Below are positions 296 through 26,885 of a stretch of 32,360 nt of DNA, in pieces. Within the stretch, counting starts at the first letter, position 1. Every line of letters begins with the position of its first letter. Source of the DNA: Bacteroidota bacterium (GTDB taxonomy: Bacteria; Bacteroidota; Bacteroidia; Bacteroidales; FEN-979); assembly GCA_026391715.1 (NCBI GenBank), contig JAPLDO010000149.1, forward strand, positions 1-32,360, in the 5' to 3' direction. Made by a program: the position numbers and the translations under genes. A model generated the notes under the pieces. The model did not search any database, was not told where the DNA came from, and worked only from the letters and a program-made list of their open reading frames with translations.

Positions 296-1891
296 ATGAT
301 GAGTGTCAGGAAAGGAATATTTTTTTTAATAAGTCTTATCGGAAGCTTTACTTCTTTGGCACAAATTTCCCCCGGGGAATTGGCGAAGGTACATTCACAC
401 CTCGAAGGTTTAAGCAATTGTACCAAATGTCATATACTCGGTAAAAAGGTTTCAAATCAGAAATGCCTTGAATGTCATTCAGAAATTAAAGCAAAGATTG
501 ACGCCCGCAAGGGTTATCATGGTTCTGCCGAGGTAACGGGAAAGGAATGTGTGAAATGTCACAGCGACCATCATGGACTGAACTTTCAGATCATTCGTTT
601 TGAAAAAGAAAAGTTTAATCACGACCTGACAGGATTCAAATTGCAGGGCGCTCATGGCAAGAAAAAATGCGTTGATTGCCATAAGCCTGAGTTCATTTCA
701 GACCCGAAAATCAAAAAAAAGAAATTCACCTATCTTGGATTAAACCTGGGTTGCGCAATTTGTCACACCGACTATCACCAAAAAACTCTTTCGCAGGAAT
801 GTGGCAATTGCCACAATTTTGAAAAGTTCAAACCGGCTGGGAAATTCGATCATCAACTGGCAAAATTCAAGTTGGAGGGTAAGCATAAGGATGTTCCATG
901 CCTATCCTGTCACAAAGCGAGTACCAAAAACGGTCAGAAATTTCAGGAATTTACGGGAGTAAAATTTGATAACTGTACCGCATGTCATCAAGATAAACAC
1001 AACAATAAATTCGGGCAAAACTGTAAAGATTGTCATTCTGAACAATCGTTTACTCTTATCAAAGGCACACAAAATTTCGATCATGATAAAACCGATTTCA
1101 AACTTGAAGGAAAGCATAAGCAGGTAGTTTGTAAAACATGCCATAAAACCAAATTCACCAACGCTATGCAATACAGTAACTGCACCAATTGTCATGAGGA
1201 TTATCACCATAAACAGTTTGCAAAACAGGGCGTATCTCCTGACTGTTCCCAATGTCATACTGTCAATGGGTTTATCGGCTCTTTATATACAATTGATAAG
1301 CATAATGCATCGGTTTTTCCACTCAAAGGCGCTCATGTAGCTACGCCATGCTTTGCATGTCATAAAAAAACAGAAAAATGGAGCTTCAGAGAAATCGGCA
1401 AAAGGTGTATTGATTGTCATACCGATATTCACAAGCCGAATATCAACGAAAAGTACTATCCGCAATCTAATTGTGAAAGCTGCCATAATGAGAACCGATG
1501 GAGCATGATTACTTTTGATCATGGAAAAACTAACTTTCCACTCGTTGGCGCTCATTTGAAACGAACCTGCCGGGAGTGCCATTTTAAAAGCGAACCAGAT
1601 GGAACTGTACGCCATCATTTTTCCGGTTTGCCTGTAAACTGTTCCAACTGCCATAAGGATGTGCATAACCATCAATTTGAAAATAATGGAGCTACCGATT
1701 GTTCACTGTGCCATAATAATGATCTTTTTAAGCCTGCGTCGAAGTTCGATCACAACAAATCGAGGTTTCCACTGGATGGTAAACACAAAAATGTAGCATG
1801 TAATAAATGCCATAAACCGAATACGGATCAGAAATTAATTTACGTTTTGTATAAAACAAACAAAATCAAATGCGAAGACTGTCATCATTAA
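296..1891 (+). CDS. Periplasmic/secreted multiheme cytochrome c with 20 CXXCH motifs
   Basis: The protein has a Sec-type signal peptide (hydrophobic stretch FFLISLIGSF, likely cleavage after SLAQ) and then 20 CXXCH heme c motifs in about 505 residues, roughly one heme per 25 residues. A module recurs about six times: FDH-x(3)-FxLxGxH-x(4)-CxxCHK, where the extra histidines probably serve as second axial ligands. No lipobox or membrane anchor follows the signal peptide, so it is predicted to be soluble in the periplasm or held at the outer membrane by partners. Two ATG codons (296, 299) follow a GTG at 293; either ATG gives a good signal peptide. Its end overlaps the next cytochrome by 22 bp. 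This is clearly an electron-transfer protein; its redox partner and terminal acceptor cannot be read from sequence. Confidence 0.93.
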   Translation: MMSVRKGIFFLISLIGSFTSLAQISPGELAKVHSHLEGLSNCTKCHILGKKVSNQKCLECHSEIKAKIDARKGYHGSAEVTGKECVKCHSDHHGLNFQIIRFEKEKFNHDLTGFKLQGAHGKKKCVDCHKPEFISDPKIKKKKFTYLGLNLGCAICHTDYHQKTLSQECGNCHNFEKFKPAGKFDHQLAKFKLEGKHKDVPCLSCHKASTKNGQKFQEFTGVKFDNCTACHQDKHNNKFGQNCKDCHSEQSFTLIKGTQNFDHDKTDFKLEGKHKQVVCKTCHKTKFTNAMQYSNCTNCHEDYHHKQFAKQGVSPDCSQCHTVNGFIGSLYTIDKHNASVFPLKGAHVATPCFACHKKTEKWSFREIGKRCIDCHTDIHKPNINEKYYPQSNCESCHNENRWSMITFDHGKTNFPLVGAHLKRTCRECHFKSEPDGTVRHHFSGLPVNCSNCHKDVHNHQFENNGATDCSLCHNNDLFKPASKFDHNKSRFPLDGKHKNVACNKCHKPNTDQKLIYVLYKTNKIKCEDCHH

Positions 1892-4191
1892 TATTGTCGT
1901 TGCTGCTAACGACAATTTTATTTGCGCAAAAATCACCACATGGCGATAGTTTTACGCTAAGTTGCAAGGATTGCCATAACCCCGATGGTTGGAAAATTGA
2001 TATGAAAACATTGACATTCAACCATGGAACAACCAAATTTCCGCTTGTGGGTCAACACCAGGCAGTCACATGCCGGCAATGCCATACCTCTTTGAACTTC
2101 ACAAGCGCGGGGAAAGAGTGCGTTGACTGTCACACAGATATGCATAATCAAACGGTGGGACCGGATTGCGGCAGATGTCATACGACAATTTCATGGGTGG
2201 TTAATAATATCACTGAAATTCATCAGCGAAGCCGGTTTCCACTTTTAGGCGCGCATGTTACCGCCGATTGTTATAATTGCCATACCAATGCAACGTCAAA
2301 TCTGCTGCTTTTTGGTCCGCTTGGCGTGGAGTGTATTGATTGCCACCGGGCAAACTATGAAGCCACTACCAAGCCGAATCATGCAGCGGGAAATTTCTCA
2401 ACCAATTGCATTGATTGTCATACAATGAATGCTTTTTCATGGTCGGGCGCCGGTTTTAATCATGCCAATATTACCTCCGGATGTGTTGAATGTCATCTGA
2501 CTGATTATAATAATACGACAAGTCCAAATCATACACAAATTGGTTTTTCAACAAATTGTAAAGATTGCCATACCACCAACCCCGGATGGAAACCTGCCGA
2601 CTACCGTGAGCATGATTCCAAATCCTTTCCCATTTATTCTGGAAAACACGGTGGCGCCTGGAGCGCTTGCAGCGATTGCCACAGCAATCCATCAAGCTAT
2701 TCGCAGTACACCTGTATTGATTGCCATGACCACAACCAGTCGAAAATGGATAACGACCATAATGAAGTGGGCGGATATGCTTACAATAGCCCGGCCTGCT
2801 TTGCTTGTCACCCAACCGGTTCAAAAGAAGGGACTTTCAACCATAGCTCTTCTGCTTTTCCATTGACTGGGGCCCATATAACTACCGAGTGTCAAAAATG
2901 CCATATCACTGGATTTAAGGGAACTCCCTCTGCATGCTTCAGTTGTCATGCGCCGGATTATAATAAATCTGTAAACCCGAATCATGCCACCTTATTTTTA
3001 CCCACAGAATGTGGAACCTGCCACACGACCGTTCCTGATTGGAAACCGGCTACATTCGATATTCACAATAATTATTACATCCTGGCAGGGGCGCATGTTC
3101 CTATTGCAACTGATTGCAATACCTGCCATAATAGCAATTATATCAATTCGCCGAATACCTGCGTCGGTTGCCATGAAGTACAGTATAACCAGTCCACCAA
3201 GCCAAACCATATTACAGCCAATTTCCCGACAACCTGCGAAACGTGTCATTCAGAAGTGGCATGGGCGCCGGCAACATTTGATCACAACAATATTTATCCG
3301 CTGATTGGAGCTCATGCAGCTATTGCTCCTAATTGCGCTTCATGCCATATCAGCGGTTATGTAAACACACCAAACACCTGCGCCGGATGTCATATCGCAA
3401 AATATAACCAGTCAACCAATCCAAACCACATAACAGCCAATTTCCCTACAACCTGTGAAACATGCCATACGCCTGCTGCCTGGAGTCCTTCATCGTTTAA
3501 CCACAACACTATTTACCCACTTACAGGCGCACATGCAACTATTGCCGCCAATTGCTTCTCCTGTCACCAGGGAAATTATTCCAACACGCCAAATACATGC
3601 GTAGGATGTCATTTGCCGAATTTTAACGCTTCGGTCAATCCTAACCATGCCGCCATAAATATCCCAACCGATTGCGGGACTTGTCATACAACCAACCCGA
3701 ACTGGACTCCTGCCACTTTTCCTATTCATAATAATTATTATGTAATAGCCGGCGCGCATATTCCGGTAAGCTGCATAACCTGTCATAATGGTAATTACAA
3801 CAACTCAACGCCGAATACCTGCGTGGGCTGCCATTTAACAAATTACAATCAAACAACCAATCCATCGCATACAGCAGCTCTGTTTCCAACATCATGCGCT
3901 GATTGTCATACTCAATCTGCATGGGCCCCGGCAAACTGGGATCACGACAATCAGTATTTTCCGATATACTCTGGAAAGCACAATGGACATTGGAATACCT
4001 GCGCCGATTGCCATCCTAACCCTGGAAACTATGCAACATTCACCTGCACTACCTCCTGCCATCCTCAATCATCAATGAATAATAAACATCAGGGGGTTGT
4101 TGGATATTCCTATAATAGCGTTGCCTGCTTAAATTGTCATCCAAGAGGATCCGGCGATAAAATGATGATTAAAATTTTCAAAAATGAATAA
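1870..4191 (+). CDS. Multiheme cytochrome c with 30 heme motifs (29 CXXCH plus one CX3CH)
   Basis: 773 residues with a signal peptide (LSSLILSLLLTTILFAQ) and no lipobox. I count 29 CXXCH motifs plus one CX3CH (CTTSCH, residues 726-731). Residues about 355-700 are a tandem array of five modules of 70-75 residues, each with three heme motifs and the conserved elements YNxSxxPNH, PTxCxTCH, ATFxxHN and GAH. A different module of about 70 residues (FPIYSGKH...NCHP/ACHP) occurs near residue 250 and again at the C-terminus. The start overlaps the previous cytochrome by 22 bp and the end overlaps the beta-barrel gene by 8 bp, so the three are probably translated together. The likely role is a heme wire in the periplasm or across/outside the outer membrane; the substrate is unknown. 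Confidence 0.93.
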   Translation: MRRLSSLILSLLLTTILFAQKSPHGDSFTLSCKDCHNPDGWKIDMKTLTFNHGTTKFPLVGQHQAVTCRQCHTSLNFTSAGKECVDCHTDMHNQTVGPDCGRCHTTISWVVNNITEIHQRSRFPLLGAHVTADCYNCHTNATSNLLLFGPLGVECIDCHRANYEATTKPNHAAGNFSTNCIDCHTMNAFSWSGAGFNHANITSGCVECHLTDYNNTTSPNHTQIGFSTNCKDCHTTNPGWKPADYREHDSKSFPIYSGKHGGAWSACSDCHSNPSSYSQYTCIDCHDHNQSKMDNDHNEVGGYAYNSPACFACHPTGSKEGTFNHSSSAFPLTGAHITTECQKCHITGFKGTPSACFSCHAPDYNKSVNPNHATLFLPTECGTCHTTVPDWKPATFDIHNNYYILAGAHVPIATDCNTCHNSNYINSPNTCVGCHEVQYNQSTKPNHITANFPTTCETCHSEVAWAPATFDHNNIYPLIGAHAAIAPNCASCHISGYVNTPNTCAGCHIAKYNQSTNPNHITANFPTTCETCHTPAAWSPSSFNHNTIYPLTGAHATIAANCFSCHQGNYSNTPNTCVGCHLPNFNASVNPNHAAINIPTDCGTCHTTNPNWTPATFPIHNNYYVIAGAHIPVSCITCHNGNYNNSTPNTCVGCHLTNYNQTTNPSHTAALFPTSCADCHTQSAWAPANWDHDNQYFPIYSGKHNGHWNTCADCHPNPGNYATFTCTTSCHPQSSMNNKHQGVVGYSYNSVACLNCHPRGSGDKMMIKIFKNE

Positions 4192-5818
4192 GCCGCTCAA
4201 CATTATAATCATTCAGATCATTATAGTGTTATTCTGCGGATTAACTATTTATGCGCAGAATTCCATTGAATCGAGGGAAGGAAAAGTATCATATATCACC
4301 TCGCAGAATGTCTATATCAAATTTCAAGCCACTGAAGGCATTTCAATAGGAGATACACTTTTCGCTACAGAAAACGGTCAGTTAGTTGCGGCATTGATTG
4401 TAAAAAATATATCCTCGATTTCCTGTGTTTGTGTTCCGTCAGGTTCCAGAACCTTTACCGTTGGCGAATCGGTGATGGCAATAACAAAGGGTATAAAACC
4501 AGTTTCTAAATCAGATTCGGTCAGCCAAAATGAATTTACACCCACGAGCGGCGTATCAGACTCTGTGAAAACACAAAAGATTCAGCCAAAAAATCAAGTC
4601 CAGGATTTCGATGGAAATATCACAGTTGCCTCATATCTGAACTTTTCCAACTCCACAGCCAATTCACAGCGGATGCGCTATACGCTCGCTTTTAATGCCG
4701 ACAATATTGGAAACTCAAAATTATCGGCAGAAACATACATATCTTTTGTTCACAAGATCAACCAATGGAGCGAGATTCAGGAAGATGTTTTTAACGGACT
4801 TAAGATTTACAATCTTTCCATTAACTATAAGTTTAGCAAACATCATCAGGTTTGGTTCGGACGAAAAATTAATCCGAAAATTTCGAACGCAGGCGCAATT
4901 GACGGGCTTCAGTACGAATTTCAACTTAATTCGCTTTCAGTTGGTATTATCGGCGGAACAAGACCAGATTATAGAAATTATAGTTTTAATGCAAATCTGA
5001 CTCAGTTTGGCGGATATCTGGCACATGATCTGGCTGGAAAAAACGGCAATATGCAGACTACCCTTGCTTTTATGCAGCAAATGAACAACGGCGCCACCGA
5101 CCGACGGTTTGCTTACCTTCAACATGTGAATGCGCTGGTTAAAAATCTCTATTTCTTTGGCTCCGTAGAAGTTGATTTTTATAAGAAGACAATGAATACT
5201 GTGGACAGTACTTTTACGCAAGACAACTCGCCAAAGCTTTCAAATCTCTATCTTTCGCTGCGTTACAGACCTTTAAAAATGCTGTCGTTTACCCTGTCGT
5301 ATAGCGCCCGCCAGAATGTAATTTACTATGAAACCTATAAAGATATTGTGGCAACTCTGCTGGAGGCTGCCACAGTGCAAGGCTTGATATTTCAGATCAA
5401 TGTAAGACCAGGAAAAAACCTTTCTATCGGCATAAATACGAGTTACCGCGATAGTAAAAATGATCCAAAACCTACAAAAAGTTTGTATATATATCTCACG
5501 TTAGCCCGTATTCCAGGCATTGAAGCTTCCGGTACTTTATCGGCAACACTGCTTGAAACCGGGTATATGTCGGGAAAAATATACAGCGCCGGTTTATCGC
5601 GCGACCTGATAAACGGAAAACTCAATGCCGGTTTGGGTTACAGGTTTGTTGATTATAGTTTTTTCAGCGGTGAAAGCAGAATTTATCAGCATATTCCCGA
5701 ATTCAACCTTACCTGGAGGATTTTGAAAAAACTCTCCTGCTCGCTATTTTATGAAGGAACTTTTGATAAAACTTCAACCTTTAACCGGATTTACATTAAT
5801 TTTACGCAACGATTCTGA
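4184..5818 (+). CDS. Outer-membrane beta-barrel (porin-like) protein of the cytochrome cluster
   Basis: 544 residues. A signal peptide (IIIIQIIIVLFCGLTIYAQ) is followed at residues about 30-100 by a small beta-rich domain (GKVSYITSQNVYIKF, GISIGDTLFA, FTVGESVMAI) that resembles an SH3-like fold. After a polar linker (about 105-145) come alternating polar/hydrophobic strands rich in aromatic residues to the end, and the chain finishes with a terminal phenylalanine (INFTQRF), typical of outer-membrane barrels. There are no heme motifs. The start codon lies inside the end of the 30-heme cytochrome gene. By analogy with porin-cytochrome complexes (MtrB-type barrel plus multiheme cytochromes), it may hold a cytochrome in the outer membrane; similarity to MtrB itself is not visible, so the role is inferred from context. 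Confidence 0.75.
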   Translation: MNKPLNIIIIQIIIVLFCGLTIYAQNSIESREGKVSYITSQNVYIKFQATEGISIGDTLFATENGQLVAALIVKNISSISCVCVPSGSRTFTVGESVMAITKGIKPVSKSDSVSQNEFTPTSGVSDSVKTQKIQPKNQVQDFDGNITVASYLNFSNSTANSQRMRYTLAFNADNIGNSKLSAETYISFVHKINQWSEIQEDVFNGLKIYNLSINYKFSKHHQVWFGRKINPKISNAGAIDGLQYEFQLNSLSVGIIGGTRPDYRNYSFNANLTQFGGYLAHDLAGKNGNMQTTLAFMQQMNNGATDRRFAYLQHVNALVKNLYFFGSVEVDFYKKTMNTVDSTFTQDNSPKLSNLYLSLRYRPLKMLSFTLSYSARQNVIYYETYKDIVATLLEAATVQGLIFQINVRPGKNLSIGINTSYRDSKNDPKPTKSLYIYLTLARIPGIEASGTLSATLLETGYMSGKIYSAGLSRDLINGKLNAGLGYRFVDYSFFSGESRIYQHIPEFNLTWRILKKLSCSLFYEGTFDKTSTFNRIYINFTQRF

Positions 5819-5913
5819 GGCAGAAAAAGCTGCGCAAAAGGAACGCAGATAATTTAGGGTTGAATGATTTACACTGATTTTTTAAATAACCAAATTCAAA
5901 AAAAATCTTAAAA

Positions 5914-6642
5914 ATGAATAAAAGCCGATTGATCATTGTTGTAGTTTTAGCGCTACTTGCTATCTTGTTTTTTGTAACTACCTGTTACCGTGGCGGACAA
6001 AAGAATAAAATGGCAGACCTTCCTCCCGGAACCCACGGCGTTACGGTAAAGGAAGTCATACAGACATCCAATTACTCATATCTTAATGTTGAAGAGAATG
6101 ACAAGATGTTCTGGATTGCGGTAGTTAGTCGCCAGGCTAAACCCGGCGACGTGATATACTATACAAAAGCTTATGAGATGAATAATTTTGTCAGCAAGGA
6201 ACTAAAACGGACTTTCCCCTCGGTTTTATTTATTGAAGATCCAGTAGATAACCTGACCACAGATCAAAAGCCTGGTCAAAAACCTATGACTGCCCAGAAG
6301 CCTACGCTATCAAAATGGTCAGATGTTTCGGTTGTTACGCCAACCGGTGGAATCACGATTGGGGATTTGTACAAGAATCCAGGTAGTTATTCCGGAAAAC
6401 CAATTATTATCCGGGGCGTTGTGACAAAATCCAATTCCCAGATTATGGGTAAAAACTGGTTGCATATCCAGGATGGCACAAATTACGAAGGGAAATTTGA
6501 TTTGACAGTCACAACAATGGATAGCCTTATTGTAGGCAAAACAGCAACTTTCAAAGGAGTAATTACCTTAAATAAAGATTTTGGTTCCGGATATTTTTAT
6601 GACGTGATCATGGAAGAAGGCAGAACTTCTGATATTAAATAG
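5914..6642 (+). CDS. Membrane-anchored protein with two OB-fold-like domains (NrfJ-like)
   Basis: 242 residues. An N-terminal hydrophobic segment (LIIVVVLALLAILFFVTT) acts as a membrane anchor or signal; Cys24 follows it but the site lacks a good lipobox. Residues about 38-110 (HGVTVKEVIQTSNYSYLNV...MFWIAV...PGDVIYY) resemble the small OB-like domain found in cytochrome-associated NrfJ-type proteins. A TTDQKPGQKP linker leads to a second OB-like domain (about 150-235: GKPIIIRGVVTKSN, GKNWLHIQDGT, GKTATFKGVI). It follows the barrel gene by 95 bp on the same strand and probably belongs to the same operon. A role in assembly or heme/metal handling of the cytochromes is inferred from the family resemblance and position only. 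Confidence 0.65.
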   Translation: MNKSRLIIVVVLALLAILFFVTTCYRGGQKNKMADLPPGTHGVTVKEVIQTSNYSYLNVEENDKMFWIAVVSRQAKPGDVIYYTKAYEMNNFVSKELKRTFPSVLFIEDPVDNLTTDQKPGQKPMTAQKPTLSKWSDVSVVTPTGGITIGDLYKNPGSYSGKPIIIRGVVTKSNSQIMGKNWLHIQDGTNYEGKFDLTVTTMDSLIVGKTATFKGVITLNKDFGSGYFYDVIMEEGRTSDIK

Positions 6643-20054: not shown

Positions 20055-22832
20055 CTAATTCCGCTTTTTCGACGAGTTTTTTTCCTTCGCAAACAACCCC
20101 GCCGTATATTTTTCGTACAACTCAAACAGAAACTCAATCCGTTTAGTTTCATTCAGGAATGGCTGGGGGCGGTAACAAAGGTCAACAGCTTTGTCAAGTT
20201 CCTGGTGGGCTTTGACGAGATCGGGCGGCATAGTCAACGGGTCGTATAGATCGGCAAGGCTGCTTCCCGGAAAATTCAAACGGGTATACAACACCTTTTG
20301 GGCGGCGTCTTCAACGGTTTTCACCTGCTTTTCGGTGGGGGATTCGGGCCAGGGGAAGTTGTTGTAAACGATTCCAGAAGAATATTGAATATCACTTTTT
20401 AATCTACCTGAAACTGTTTTAATCCAAGCCATATTCATAATTGAACTCAAAACTCCAAAATGATAAAAAGTGGCATTCACAATTGTGTAGTTCTTGTTAC
20501 TTGTGATAATTTCTTTCGATATATATCCAACGGGTATGTATTTCCTTCGTTCTGAAGAAACCTCTGGAAATATTAAATAATCAGAATCTGGTTGTCGTAT
20601 TTCGCCAAATAGGTAAGGATATTCGGCGAGTTTATTTGTTGTTGGTCTATTACTCGCTAAGCGAGCCTTTCTAACTAATTCAAGCCTTTTTTGAAGTTGA
20701 GGTAATTTCCTTAAATCAGAAGGATCAGCCCCTTTTAGCCATAAACACCATCGGGTGGATCCATTTAAAAATTCGTGCGACCCAATGAATTCGCGAAATA
20801 AAATCAAAGATGATGGTTCTATTTTAAGAAAGGCATCCTTTTCAGCGGTTGTGAAGATTAAATGTCCACCATCATTTGGCATGTTACCAAATGCCATTTC
20901 TGGGACATTACAAATTGGTTTTCGCCGCTTGCTTATAAAATTATCCTTTCCTTCGACTAAATACGGATTGATGCTTTTTACAATCACTTCAAGAGGCTCT
21001 CCGGTAATATTTTCATATCCAAATAGTCGGTTTTCCTGAATCTGATGGTTTGTAAAACCAATTATAACTACATGCACTGCGGCTTTCCCACGAGCTTCAT
21101 TACTCCATTTAAAAGTTCGATGGGCAAAAAATATTTTCAAATGAAACCTTCGATTAAGAATTCTCCATAAAATTCCAACTTGTTCTCCTTGGCTGATTGA
21201 ATTTGTCGAAACAAATGCACATTTAGTTGATGAAGAATCGCTAATTGAAGTTAAATATTCTCCGGCTCTCAAATACCACGCTGTCACAAAATCTAAAATA
21301 CCAGTTCCTAAAATGCCATTAAAGACAAGCTCCATGTCATCTTTCTGATTTTTATTTTGATATTGTTTTCCTAAGAACGGCGGGTTCCCGAAAATATAAT
21401 CGAACCGTGCTGCGCCCTGTTCCCAGGGAATTGGTTCGATCAGGCTTTGCCAGTCAATGCGCAATGCATTGCCGCAAGTGATGTTCGGACTTTTGCGCAA
21501 TGGAAGCCGGAGGAAATACTGTCCGAACGCCTCGCTGACGAGCATGTTCATCTGGTGGTCCATCAGCCACAAAGCAACCTGGGCAATCTGGGAGGGGAAT
21601 TCTTCGATCTCAATGCCGTAAAAACGGTCAACATCGAGTTTTATCAGTTCGCCGACGTCAAACACCTGCTGTCCCTTCTGCAAAACCCTTATTATTTCAA
21701 GTTCCAGCAACCGTATTTCCCGGTAGGTAATGACCAGGAAATTCCCGCAACCGCACGCGGGATCCAGAAAACGCAGGGAAGCCAGTTTGTCGTGAAACCG
21801 GATTAGTTTATTCCGGTTGTCTTTAACTGAATGGAACTCTTTCCAAAGATCGTCGAGGAACAAAGGTTTGATCACCTTCATGATGTTCTTTTCGGAGGTG
21901 TAATGGGCGCCAAGGTTTCTTCGTTCCACCGGGTTCATCACACTTTGGAACAGGGAACCGAAGATTGCCGGTGATATTTTACCCCAGTTCAGCATGGTAC
22001 ATTCCATCAGGTTGTTGCGCATGGTTGTATCAAAGGAAGCCGGCGGAAGGGTCTCTTCAAACAACCTGCCGTTGATGTATGGAAAAGCCGCCAGGTCTTC
22101 ATCAAGGTTCCGCAACCGTTTATCCTTTGGCGTGTTCAGCACGTAGAACAACATGGAAAGATGCTGGGCAAGGTCGCTGCCGTCATCTTTGGTTTTGTTT
22201 ATCAGGTAATCGCGGAGCTGGTCACGCTCAAAAATACTGGTATCTTCGGCAAACAGGCAAAACAACAAACGGATAAGGTAAACCTCCAGAACGTGGCCCT
22301 CATAGCCCACAGCTTTAAGCCGGTCATGCAGCTTTCCCATCATTTCGGCTGCATGGATGTTGACCGGGTCCTGCTCGGTAAAAGTGTGTTTCTGGTATCC
22401 GGCTATGAACCCAAACTCCCTGATATTTTTGTACAGGTCGTTCAATTCAAATTCATGAACATTGCCATCATCATCCATGTCGTATAGCCTGAAACGGGCA
22501 AAATCGGAGACCAGGACATATTTTGGCAATTCAAAATCCTTTAGTCCGGGGAAGTATTCAAGAGCTTGTTTGTAAGCTTTATCGAGGTCTTTTCCCCTTG
22601 ATTTGTGTTCGACCAGGATCATCCCTTTCCAAAGCATCTCAATGTATCCGATTGATTCATCCAACCGCTTTACCGGCTTCTCAAAGCTCGCCACCTTTCG
22701 GCGGGAGATGCCAAACACATTGAAAAACTCATCCCAAAAGGTTTTAGCTTCGGCATCTTCGCCCGATACATTTTCCCAATCTTTATAAAACCGGATTGAA
22801 CGGTCTTTGATTTCGTTCCAGGATAGAGCCAT
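20055..22832 (-). CDS. MmeI-like type IIL restriction-modification enzyme (fused nuclease and adenine methyltransferase)
   Basis: 925 residues, close to MmeI (919). The N-terminal nuclease domain has GYIEMLWKGMILVEHKSRGK: Glu65-x9-Glu75-x-Lys77, matching the MmeI D-x9-ExK spacing but with Glu for the first Asp. A helical linker leads to a gamma-class N6-adenine methyltransferase: FLDPACGCGNFL (motif I, about 353) and FGNPPFLGKQY (motif IV NPPF, about 481). The C-terminal third (about 600-925) should hold the target-recognition domain and the DLYDPLTMPPDL... helical tail. Such enzymes methylate one strand of an asymmetric site and cut about 20 bp away. The gene is solitary, adjacent to tRNA-Arg, with a -7 element (TAGTTTTG) just upstream. 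Confidence 0.88.
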   Translation of the reverse strand: MALSWNEIKDRSIRFYKDWENVSGEDAEAKTFWDEFFNVFGISRRKVASFEKPVKRLDESIGYIEMLWKGMILVEHKSRGKDLDKAYKQALEYFPGLKDFELPKYVLVSDFARFRLYDMDDDGNVHEFELNDLYKNIREFGFIAGYQKHTFTEQDPVNIHAAEMMGKLHDRLKAVGYEGHVLEVYLIRLLFCLFAEDTSIFERDQLRDYLINKTKDDGSDLAQHLSMLFYVLNTPKDKRLRNLDEDLAAFPYINGRLFEETLPPASFDTTMRNNLMECTMLNWGKISPAIFGSLFQSVMNPVERRNLGAHYTSEKNIMKVIKPLFLDDLWKEFHSVKDNRNKLIRFHDKLASLRFLDPACGCGNFLVITYREIRLLELEIIRVLQKGQQVFDVGELIKLDVDRFYGIEIEEFPSQIAQVALWLMDHQMNMLVSEAFGQYFLRLPLRKSPNITCGNALRIDWQSLIEPIPWEQGAARFDYIFGNPPFLGKQYQNKNQKDDMELVFNGILGTGILDFVTAWYLRAGEYLTSISDSSSTKCAFVSTNSISQGEQVGILWRILNRRFHLKIFFAHRTFKWSNEARGKAAVHVVIIGFTNHQIQENRLFGYENITGEPLEVIVKSINPYLVEGKDNFISKRRKPICNVPEMAFGNMPNDGGHLIFTTAEKDAFLKIEPSSLILFREFIGSHEFLNGSTRWCLWLKGADPSDLRKLPQLQKRLELVRKARLASNRPTTNKLAEYPYLFGEIRQPDSDYLIFPEVSSERRKYIPVGYISKEIITSNKNYTIVNATFYHFGVLSSIMNMAWIKTVSGRLKSDIQYSSGIVYNNFPWPESPTEKQVKTVEDAAQKVLYTRLNFPGSSLADLYDPLTMPPDLVKAHQELDKAVDLCYRPQPFLNETKRIEFLFELYEKYTAGLFAKEKNSSKKRN

Positions 22833-24683: not shown

Positions 24684-25580
24684 CTATATGAATTTCCAAA
24701 TGTCTTCAATGAGTAGATTGTCGAATGTTTTTATATGATCTTTCAAAATATTTTCAGTCATCATTCTGGGTCTGATGTCACAATAATAAACTCCATCAAG
24801 CGGATTGAGTTTGACAGTGTATGCTTTGAAGTGTCCAGGAAGAAAAGTAGCGCTGATGCCATCTTCATTTAATCGCCTTGTATTTTTTCTTTGTACATCG
24901 TTGAGGAAAATAGCGATATGTGGAGTTGGCTTTTCTGTGAGTTTATTGTATAGGAATTTATCAATGAAAATTTTGTCAATGCGATCTTTACTTGATGTTT
25001 TTATGGAACCGATGACTTTTACTTCGTTATCTTTCTCAATAATCAAATCATGCTGATAACTCATAGTAAACTGTTCTTCGTCAGCGCCGATTATAGGAAC
25101 TTGTATAACACCGGCAGTGCAAGTAATTCCAATTTCACGAATGATTAATCGAATAAAATGTTCAAATAAATCACCATTTAATTTCCGTGCTTTGTTTGAT
25201 TGCCCGGCTGGTAAACCGTCTAATGCGGAGCCTACAGATTGCTGAATCGTATATGTTGCGCTATTGATAATTTGTCTTAACGATTCATCTTTCTTGTTGA
25301 TGGTTTTAATGGTCTGTAAAACTTTTGAAAACTCCTTTGAATATTTTGCAAAATTTTTTGCGTCATACATCAAGTTAGAGTTTATTGGTCTGGTGATTTG
25401 ATAATTGCCCTCTTTCTTGTATTGGTAAAAGCAATAGTGGTTTTCGTTCTGAGAAACTATTGTTGCCTGCAAATTGTCGCTTATGTAATTTAAATATTCA
25501 CCACTGAATGCAATGTATGCTTTCAAGTCAACAAAATTGTTTTTGTCTTTGGCTTTATTTACGAGTTGTTTTAAGTTCAT
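24684..25580 (-). CDS. Type II restriction endonuclease, PD-(D/E)XK-like
   Basis: 298 residues, last gene of a controller-methyltransferase-endonuclease operon; its start overlaps the methyltransferase end by 4 bp (ATGA-type junction). A nuclease core is suggested by SYQHDLIIEK (Asp178) followed by VIGSIKTSSKDR (Ser192-Ile-Lys194) on a predicted beta-strand, with an acidic helix residue (Glu140, DLFEHF) upstream. SxK in place of the usual (D/E)xK is a variant. The MjaI-type family is a possible match from memory of GSIKTS, but I am not sure. The gene is visibly AT-richer than icd and parC, fitting horizontal acquisition. Its recognition sequence cannot be deduced. Confidence 0.75.
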   Translation of the reverse strand: MNLKQLVNKAKDKNNFVDLKAYIAFSGEYLNYISDNLQATIVSQNENHYCFYQYKKEGNYQITRPINSNLMYDAKNFAKYSKEFSKVLQTIKTINKKDESLRQIINSATYTIQQSVGSALDGLPAGQSNKARKLNGDLFEHFIRLIIREIGITCTAGVIQVPIIGADEEQFTMSYQHDLIIEKDNEVKVIGSIKTSSKDRIDKIFIDKFLYNKLTEKPTPHIAIFLNDVQRKNTRRLNEDGISATFLPGHFKAYTVKLNPLDGVYYCDIRPRMMTENILKDHIKTFDNLLIEDIWKFI

Positions 25581-26563
25581 CTGATAGAGTTCCGTCTTTT
25601 CTGGTTGTCAAAATCATATTCTATCCACTTGTTAATGCTCCAATCTTCAACAAGTTCTATGCGATTCGCTGCCCAATCCAGGTATTCTGGCGATAAATCG
25701 CAAGCTAACCATTTACGTTGAAGCTGCTCAGAACAAACAGGCGTCGTACCCGAACCACAAAAAGGGTCAAGCACTTTGTCGCCAACGTTTGAAGAAGCTA
25801 AAATTATTTTGCGCAAAAGTTCTTCCGGTTTCTGTGTAGGGTGCGGAGTCTTTTCGTGCATACCATTGCAGGTTGTTGGCGCTTCAATAATATCTTGCGG
25901 GATTTCCAGTACATCTTTTGGTTTTGCTCCAAGTGGATTTGGCTCCCAAATATGATTTTTGTTTTTACCGTTTCCGTACTGACTTGTCTCTGCTTGCGGA
26001 TGACTTGGATATTTCAATGTATGTTCGCTGTATGGAAGACGGATTGAATCAATATTGAAAGTAAAATGCTTTGTCTTACGAAAATGCAAAATGCTTTCAT
26101 GGCTTCGACCCCAGTCGCTGCCTAAGTTTGCCTTATTTTTGTAATTCCAAATAATCCACCGGCAACCTTTAAAATATTTTGTTGCCGGATGTTTTAGGTC
26201 AGCTAGAATCTCGGAAAAACCGCAAATGAAAAGCGTTCCCGTTGGTTTCAAAACTCTGGCAGCTTGTTCAATCCATTGCATAGAAAATTTAATGTACTCT
26301 TCCTGGCTTTCAAAAGTGTCCCAATCAGCTTTCCTGATATTGTATGGCGGATCGGCAAAAATCAGATCAATACTCTCTGGGTTCAATGTTTTAAGCCACT
26401 CAATACTATTGCCTTGCCATAGTTGCCCGTGTGGATGCTGATAAAACAACCCAGGTTTTTCAGTTTCCGTTTGTGAAACCAAAGATAGTTGGCGTTCTCC
26501 TCTTAGTTGAACTTCGCCGAAGAATGTCGGAAGTTCTTTATTTCTCATTAATGTTTTACCCAT
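25577..26563 (-). CDS. Beta-class DNA methyltransferase (N6-adenine or N4-cytosine) of the type II system
   Basis: 328 residues with beta-class motif order: catalytic motif IV DPPYNIRKADWD (71-74) precedes the target-recognition region (about 150-235) and the SAM-binding HPTQKP (241-246) and LDPFCGSGTT (motif I, 266-274). DPPY rather than SPP(Y/W) favours N6-adenine methylation. The family protects host DNA from the partner endonuclease. It overlaps the controller gene by 8 bp upstream and the endonuclease gene by 4 bp downstream, so all three are read from one promoter. Met6 (26548) is an alternative start. The specific sequence methylated is not evident. Confidence 0.92.
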   Translation of the reverse strand: MGKTLMRNKELPTFFGEVQLRGERQLSLVSQTETEKPGLFYQHPHGQLWQGNSIEWLKTLNPESIDLIFADPPYNIRKADWDTFESQEEYIKFSMQWIEQAARVLKPTGTLFICGFSEILADLKHPATKYFKGCRWIIWNYKNKANLGSDWGRSHESILHFRKTKHFTFNIDSIRLPYSEHTLKYPSHPQAETSQYGNGKNKNHIWEPNPLGAKPKDVLEIPQDIIEAPTTCNGMHEKTPHPTQKPEELLRKIILASSNVGDKVLDPFCGSGTTPVCSEQLQRKWLACDLSPEYLDWAANRIELVEDWSINKWIEYDFDNQKRRNSIR

Positions 26564-26882
26564 TTCGTTGAGTTTTTAAGTAAGACACTTTTTGTTCTGC
26601 TGCTTTTAAAATTTCCAAATCAGCTTCTTCGTCTATAATTTTGTACGCGATTTGGTCGCTGAGAAATTCGTTTTGCAATTCTCTTTCGTCAACATTAAAA
26701 AAGCAGGCAACTTCTTTTATGAGTTGTTTTGTTGGCTGTCTTTCATTGCGTTCAATTTTTGCAAGTAAAGAAGGGTCAATTCCAAGATGAGATGCAACTT
26801 CTCTCAACGGCAATTCCACTTCGGTTCTCAGTGTTCTGAGATGCTCTCCAAAAGATATGAATTTTAGTTTTGATTTCGGCAT
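26556..26882 (-). CDS. Helix-turn-helix controller (C protein-like, XRE family)
   Basis: 108 residues. An XRE-type HTH occupies about 10-65: FGEHLRTLRTEVELPLREVA, SHLGIDPSLLAKIERNERQP, with the helix-turn-helix at LREVASHLGIDPSLLAKIE. The C-terminal 40 residues are a charged helix (DEEADLEILKAAEQKVSYLK). ATG at 26882 is preferred to the in-frame TTG at 26885. The gene heads the restriction operon and has two palindromic sites immediately upstream, the arrangement of controller proteins that time methyltransferase and endonuclease expression. It is somewhat longer than classic C proteins (about 80), so a more general XRE autoregulator is also possible. Confidence 0.88.
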   Translation of the reverse strand: MPKSKLKFISFGEHLRTLRTEVELPLREVASHLGIDPSLLAKIERNERQPTKQLIKEVACFFNVDERELQNEFLSDQIAYKIIDEEADLEILKAAEQKVSYLKTQRNG

Positions 26883-26885
26883 CAA

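Follow-up and report, generated by a model that had tools for sequence, protein, structure and literature searches.

The closest described systems include several from Proteobacteria. PCC3, a putative porin-cytochrome complex (PCC) (PMC5566968) that has been surveyed in Gallionellaceae (PMC10734462), combines a porin with a large periplasmic cytochrome (median 21 hemes), a very large and variable outer cytochrome (median 34 hemes) and an inner-membrane protein of about 300 amino acids that carries two WX3HX13H motifs and SGXXG; residues per heme are few and repeats are present. In the S13 PCC of Burkholderiales, a porin gene follows two large cytochromes with 24 and 49 hemes, the larger of which varies by gain and loss of CxxCH domains (PMC7399161). 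PCC-like clusters in which a porin-like gene lies beside multiheme cytochromes, without known homologs, have been reported from Bacteroidetes (PMC6344600); for the anode-enriched 'Bacteroidetes_1' cluster one barrel is described along with six multiheme genes, and some of its hits are common to Ignavibacteriae (PMC8258643), and Ignavibacteria were reported with Geobacter-like porins (PMC7399161, PMC6137239, PMC4245776). We describe a gene set of similar plan from a Bacteroidota bacterium (assembly GCA_026391715.1, contig JAPLDO010000149.1). The window, that is the whole stretch of DNA analysed, is this contig at its full length of 32,360 bases (C15 of a draft of 256 contigs, 98.99% complete), and it holds two multiheme c-type cytochromes (A and B), a barrel-like protein (C) and an accessory protein (D).

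The initial annotation had read these four genes as an outer-membrane electron conduit, and this reading is supported by what is found in relatives. We consider it probable that A-D form the outer portion of an electron conduit through the whole cell envelope and that the full cassette, with two further genes (X1 and X2) located off this contig, is a route from NAD(P)H to the outside, in which the wire across the periplasm is fixed and the outer one can be extended. X1 and X2 as partners, the conservation across the phylum, the constancy of 20 hemes in A and a rule of 3n+1 hemes in B all go beyond that annotation.

The cassette is PCC3-like in plan, being likened by plan, motifs and published descriptions and not by sequence. 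A-B-C bring together the genes for a porin, a predicted periplasmic and a predicted extracellular multiheme cytochrome, the periplasmic one with 20 hemes; the inner-membrane protein of about 300 amino acids with both motifs is X1 in locus L034 and in Emticicia, and is broken in the window's own genome. Few residues per heme and the presence of repeats are further points in common. In contrast to PCC3, the cassette regularly includes X2, which the accessible text of PMC5566968 and PMC10734462 does not list among the parts of PCC3; the periplasmic hemes number 20 or 23 against 21, 24 or 27 in Gallionellaceae, the barrel has about 545 amino acids compared with porins of up to 42 predicted strands, and the phylum is a different one. 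The S13 PCC shares the porin preceded by two large cytochromes with a variable larger one, but its porin was found with OmbB-based models and it also belongs to another phylum. The difference in heme number from MtrCAB and from the Geobacter conduits that the initial annotation had stressed stands; a porin accompanied by a pair of very large cytochromes does have a precedent, because the PCC3 plan is already in print. Some distant members of our set may be the published Bacteroidetes clusters, compared by description only; the accessible text on 'Bacteroidetes_1' gives no heme counts and mentions neither X1 nor X2. Among the open-licence PMC papers listed by our searches, none describes this gene set, judged by title, start of the abstract or selected passages (supplements excluded), and in the literature searched we found neither a full electron conduit for Bacteroidota nor a laboratory test of any cassette member. 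New, as far as searched, are the definition of a cassette that includes X2, the linkage of its genes throughout the phylum, the constant 20 hemes of A with 20 additional invariant histidines, the 3n+1 heme counts of B, which reach 73, an X2-A fusion frame and a complete plasmid copy.

Gene order and co-occurrence in Bacteroidota

When GTDB contigs were searched with the barrel alignment, 314 stretches and 294 relatives were obtained; the best 80 of these relatives are the named loci and partly repeat a first set (loci of all sets bear L numbers). Their record titles read Bacteroidales, Marinilabiliales or Bacteroidetes, and four cultured isolates are among them: Prolixibacter denitrificans, Mariniphaga sediminis, Draconibacterium aestuarii and D. 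mangrovi. Two records, L134 and L128, are titled Alphaproteobacteria and Chlorobiota; their barrels group among Bacteroidales in the tree and the records are probably mislabelled.

The order of the complete cassette is X1-X2-A-B-C, with D as a possible addition, and both X1 (about 289 amino acids) and X2 (about 445) lie upstream of A. X2 directly precedes 62 of the 64 named A genes with more than 1.6 kb upstream, and X1 precedes 56 of the 58 with more than 2.7 kb. For both genes the exceptions are an additional A-type copy in L099 and the locus L134. In the latter (L134:5852-8734, also L052; genome G006), X2 and A form one reading frame of 960 amino acids with X1 before it, the X2 part matching at 67.5% over 431 and the A part at 54% over 523 amino acids; this is either a natural fusion or a lost stop. 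A multiheme open reading frame (ORF) ends at the start of the barrel in 77 of the 79 named barrels with more than 500 bp upstream; the two misses, L134 and L144, are over-extended barrel ORFs, and B is present at both. A D homolog lies inside the examined flank in 29/80 named loci. Among the loci read, no further gene recurs inside the row from X1 to C, the flanking genes being annotated only in part.

Barrel and X1 also co-occur across genomes. The barrel occurs in 37 of 149 genomes, our own included (35 regions read), and X1, sought independently by profile in the same genomes, in 35. Both are present in 34, the barrel only in three, X1 only in one and neither in 111. All three barrel-only genomes hold broken copies (fragments in G017 and G026, a copy with stops in G111), and the X1-only genome, G039, is 69% complete. 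Fisher's test gives p = 6e-29, a value inflated by kinship to which we give no weight beyond the counts. Pairwise distances correlate as well (A-C 0.935, A-X1 0.909, C-X1 0.926; 87 loci with all three, relatedness uncorrected).

In a set of 395 evenly drawn Bacteroidota genomes the barrel is present in 35, our own included, and 33 of these belong to classes other than that of the window. The regions read number 31 and come from 29 of the 34 other barrel-bearing genomes: a B-type cytochrome stands at the barrel in 29, A is present in 27, X1 in 26 and X2 in 27, the last upstream of A in 14 regions, beyond the barrel in 13 and not seen in four. The gene set thus recurs across the phylum. The two regions without B are L191, a fragment of 94 amino acids, and L195, whose barrel is interrupted by two stops. 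In L195 and L196 (G406:C26) a barrel homolog with two TAG codons in its frame lacks neighbouring cytochrome genes; another cassette of the same genome is complete, and its B has 10 hemes.

Of the two upstream partners, X1 carries the motif WX3HX13H in duplicate along with SGXXG, both in L034 and in Emticicia, with residues invariant in 28 rows; its Pfam matches are weak and mixed (DUF4405 in 12/28, best E 6e-4). These motifs are the signature of the inner-membrane protein of PCC3 and PCC4, which has been read as a di-heme b protein (PMC5566968), and X1 is predicted to be an inner-membrane protein with two b hemes. X2 carries a Fer4 dicluster domain (2[4Fe-4S]) and Pyr_redox_3 and is an oxidoreductase of the FAD/NAD(P) type, its nearest relatives being YpdA and thioredoxin reductases; its N terminus shows, by eye, a hydrophobic stretch followed by basic residues.

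The two cytochromes, the barrel and the accessory protein

The initial annotation had counted 20 CXXCH motifs in A and 29 CXXCH plus one CX3CH in B, and these counts are correct, the CX3CH motif reading CTTSCH; among 2000 residue shuffles per protein the mean number of CXXCH was 0.26 for A and 0.35 for B, and the maximum 3. The overlaps of A with B and of B with C were likewise confirmed by the ORF coordinates (Table 1); start codons at 293 (GTG), 296 or 299 (ATG) are candidates for A. A, B and C have hydrophobic leaders and no lipobox, judged by eye from the translations; for A and B this agrees with the initial annotation. Multiheme cytochrome domains of the c7/c3 type exceed the Pfam cut-off in A and B; Cytochrome_C7 matches seven stretches of A and ten of B, and tandem triheme c7 domains are thus present in both.

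The heme number of A is nearly constant. Exactly 20 CXXCH motifs are found in 64 of 70 non-edge A-type ORFs of the named loci; the remaining six are three with 23 motifs (L132, L147 and the extra L099 copy), the halves of a split gene with 8 and 11 (L111) and a cytochrome of 932 amino acids with 19 (L113). The distant copies agree, with 20 in 23 of 26 single-ORF copies (16, 19 and 23 in the others) and one further copy split into 5 + 14. Besides the histidines of the CXXCH motifs, exactly 20 further histidines are 100% conserved in an alignment of 38 rows, made up of the window's A and 37 homologs out of 64 selected by length. This is the number expected if every heme of A had bis-histidine ligation.

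With invariant histidines sufficient for all 20 hemes, A has no obvious open site, and this argues against an enzyme system in which the multiheme proteins supply electrons to a reductase, in the periplasm or at the surface, that acts on soluble compounds such as tetrathionate, nitrite or dimethyl sulfoxide. Sub-threshold matches to TIGR03508 (DmsE) and to HmcA models would fit such a system, but they are far under the curated cut-offs (A reaches 49 bits with TIGR03508, cut-off 192), and in the loci read the row from X1 to C holds no additional recurring gene. We regard this alternative as highly improbable.

In a profile search of chains in the PDB, A matched best to 3ov0, a triheme-c7 polymer that we take to be GSU1996 (E 2.7e-8); it also matched HmcA-type chains (0.0009-0.006) and 6r2q_A (0.003), presumably MtrA, although the structure file labels it otherwise. 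GSU1996 is reportedly 12 nm long for 12 hemes, according to the title of its structure paper. If this ratio held, A would be about 20 nm long. The periplasm is about 20 nm wide, and a length near this width would explain the constant heme number. The likeness to the GSU1996-type polymers of Geobacter, a chain of triheme c7-like units, is one of heme-domain membership and not of system, as these have 12 hemes and are periplasmic monomers (PMC10138318), with no barrel. Capacitor roles have been proposed for GSU1996 (PMC10138318) and for PCC3 cytochromes (PMC10734462); together with the 12-heme chain 3ov0 as the best match of A, they would fit A and B as capacitors or redox buffers, with the barrel incidental or structural. 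We hold this to be very unlikely, since the barrel seldom occurs without cytochromes and a cytochrome fixed at 20 hemes beside a variable B would fit a span better than a store.

B differs from A in that its length varies in steps. The 80 non-edge copies of the named loci have 12-73 heme motifs, and with CXXCH and CX3CH both counted the number is 3n+1 in 72 of them (71/79 without the duplicate L092); the exceptions are L073, L079, L115, L117, L135, two copies in L139 and L145. In the distant set, which is independent of the discovery of the rule, it is found in 30/34 (29/34 by CXXCH alone). The spacing of the motifs repeats as 15-25-33, a triheme unit of 73 residues. Tandem DNA repeats were sought in the B gene of the window and none was found; L095 has one 225-bp tandem array. 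A second B-type gene with 13-37 motifs lies directly or closely downstream of the barrel in L093, L095, L099, L101, L102, L135, L138 and L179, and L095 has B-type copies of 73, 34 and 13 motifs.

The composition of the two proteins also differs. The isoelectric point is 8.9 for A of the window and 6.5 for B; A homologs (n = 68) have 13.9% Lys/Arg and a mean isoelectric point of 8.2, compared with 3.9% and 6.0 in B homologs (n = 87). Thr, Ser, Asn, Gly, Ala and Pro make up 46% of the latter, which resembles the composition published for extracellular PCC3 cytochromes (PMC5566968).

C has no Pfam or NCBIfam family and no convincing match in the PDB, and the 58 members of its alignment give scattered weak matches. 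Its alternating hydrophobicity yields 29, 24 or 20 amphipathic peaks depending on the threshold, an uncalibrated measure on which we do not rely. The terminal Phe pointed out in the initial annotation is invariant across a 27-row alignment, whereas the proposed SH3-like N-terminal domain was not confirmed, Pfam giving no match in C or in the 58 members. From these features and its neighbours we infer that C is an outer-membrane barrel. That it might be a generic porin is ruled out by its co-occurrence with X1 and by its multiheme neighbours, present at 77 of 79 named barrels and in 29 of 31 distant regions.

For D, the postulated OB fold is weakly supported by a tRNA_anti-like match in seven of 24 homologs (best E 9e-4), and a GW domain is found in 20 of the 24; the GW match of D itself is sub-threshold. 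In the D alignment (A5) a Cys follows the leader in many rows, by eye. The same alignment has one invariant His, in the motif NW(V/I/L/A)H(I/L)QD; that it handles heme is a guess.

Table 1. Cassette genes in the window, their predicted products and the features used for each prediction.
Gene	Position	Strand	Predicted product	Evidence
A	299..1891	+	20-heme c-type cytochrome, predicted periplasm-spanning wire	20 CXXCH, 20 invariant extra His, 3ov0 profile match
B	1870..4191	+	30-heme c-type cytochrome, predicted outer-surface wire of triheme units of about 73 amino acids	motif counts, spacing, homologs
C	4184..5818	+	predicted outer-membrane barrel-like protein, conserved N-terminal region, without Pfam family	C-terminal Phe, linkage to multiheme genes
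D	5914..6642	+	lipoprotein- or anchor-like accessory protein, GW-like and OB-like halves	Pfam matches of homologs

MtrCAB, PioAB and MtoAB likewise place a barrel and cytochromes across the outer membrane, but neither C nor its 57 homologs match the MtrB/PioB families (Pfam at E 0.1; none among solved chains), and A has 20 motifs in contrast to the decaheme MtrA/DmsE. Geobacter Pcc (OmbB-OmaB-OmcB) has an 8-heme periplasmic and a 12-heme outer cytochrome (PMC4245776) in place of the 20 + 30 hemes seen here. A known soluble periplasmic family was looked for as well, and no NCBIfam cytochrome model reaches its cut-off with A or B. MtrCAB, Geobacter Pcc, DmsE, HmcA and NrfB were rejected as identities of the system because their features are missing or the matches lie below cut-off. 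The sole contrary result is PF22113, the MtrC/MtrF domain, which is just over its cut-off of 30 (A 32.3 bits, B 42.7) in short or repeat-spanning stretches that c7-type repeats may match too.

Predicted electron path and its direction

In the conduit that we propose, the membrane-anchored X2 (FAD and 2[4Fe-4S]) would accept electrons from a donor in the cytoplasm, NAD(P)H or a different one, and pass them to X1, where two predicted b hemes would carry them across the inner membrane. A, as a bis-histidine 20-heme wire of near-fixed length, would bridge the periplasm. The outer membrane would be passed where A or B enters the barrel C, and B, its length set by the number of triheme units, would lead to the outside. 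The cell would most likely use it under anaerobic conditions to get rid of electrons, with humics, metal oxides or partner cells as the acceptors. The outward direction is favoured because the habitats, read from record labels, are likely anoxic; the sequence leaves the direction undecided.

The models of PCC3 in Fe(II) oxidisers run inward (PMC5566968, PMC10734462), and Prolixibacter denitrificans DSM 27267, described as iron-corroding, has the cassette (L141). In line with this, Fe(II), metallic iron or partner cells could be the electron source of an inward-running conduit that ends, via X1-X2, in the formation of NAD(P)H. Nitrite has, however, been named as the causal factor of Prolixibacter corrosion (PMC8368055), and the labels of many relatives suggest anoxic lakes, where disposal of electrons would be the commoner need. 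Uptake thus appears rather unlikely to us.

Several observations weigh against the proposed conduit. The system is dispensable, because 112 of the 149 genomes are without the barrel. The named loci, as the best 80 of 294, are biased to close kin, and in the distant region L193 B and C have no A, X1 or X2 beside them. The 3n+1 rule falls to 55/80 when CXXCH alone is counted, and the window's own B with its 30 motifs departs from it. B has no recognisable surface anchor. Finally, in the window's own genome X1-X2 are on another contig, C242, and not beside A, and X1 (L070:8637-9429, G000:C242) is matched in two frames with stops. The X2 there is 74% identical to that of L034; X1 adjoins it, and the next gene beyond X2 is glycoside-hydrolase-like.

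Either the system is being lost from this genome or the draft assembly is in error; A-D are intact. The conduit may use another inner-membrane donor here, or it may be decaying. That the genes of the window are remnants of a system on its way out is suggested by the frame-broken, detached X1 and by the fragmentary barrels in G017, of the same genus, and G026, of the same family. Against this, A, B, C and D are full-length ORFs, the motifs of A and B are kept, and in a draft of 256 contigs the break in X1 is possibly an assembly error. We therefore consider a relic improbable and retain the conduit as the preferred reading.

Other multiheme ORFs of this genome are on C19 (L214; 11, 8, 5 and 4 motifs), C175 (L213; 7 and 6) and C103 (L212; 5), and possibly belong to other respiratory complexes. 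The other ORFs scanned in the window have mostly housekeeping, metabolic or restriction-modification domains, and two have no Pfam match. An MmeI-type restriction-methylation enzyme is encoded at 20055-22832 on the minus strand, and a DNA methylase and an HTH gene lie separately at 25577-26885.

Plasmid copies and implications

A complete cassette is found on plasmid pEMTOL02 of Emticicia oligotrophica DSM 17448 (L151, NC_018749.1:71299-92141). A CcsA-type cytochrome-assembly gene, X1, X2, A (23 motifs), B (40 motifs), C and a GW-domain D stand there in one row. On the other side of the cassette is a group of Rieske, YceI and beta-barrel genes. In the barrel tree the Emticicia copy groups with L177, from a genome of the window's class but of another order, and the plasmid copy suggests a trait that is able to move between orders.

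When PCC3 sequences were sought on plasmids, only this cassette and 7-heme modules were found (6 of 49 matches examined). The modules recur on plasmids of Alteromonas, Qipengyuania, Bradyrhizobium BTAi1, Methylophaga and Acetobacter (L152-L156) and consist of a 2Fe-2S reductase, an X1-like membrane protein and a 7-heme cytochrome; the Alteromonas module lies next to genes for a NiFe hydrogenase, and some of the others have metal-related genes beside them. Their likeness to the cassette is an X1 relative (E 2e-6 to 1e-4) between a reductase gene and a cytochrome gene. They differ in that no barrel is annotated nearby, the cytochrome has seven hemes, the reductase is of another kind and the tryptophan of the first WX3H is missing.

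It is tempting to speculate that the cassette is a mobile 'cable kit', with an X2-X1 entry that bypasses the quinone pool, a 20-heme wire of periplasm width and an outer wire lengthened by 3-heme modules, inherited as a unit across Bacteroidota and transferred complete by plasmid; we offer this tentatively, as possible but not the likelier case. If it were true, the outer wire would evolve its reach up to 73 hemes, which would correspond to about 70 nm provided that the length-to-heme ratio of GSU1996 (12 nm for 12 hemes) applied.

Bacteroidota are abundant anaerobic degraders. Since the cassette is present in cultured isolates (Prolixibacter, Mariniphaga, Draconibacterium and Emticicia), extracellular respiration in this phylum is directly testable. 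The natural variants, with an inner wire fixed at 20 hemes and an outer wire quantised by modules, can address what sets the length of a protein wire.

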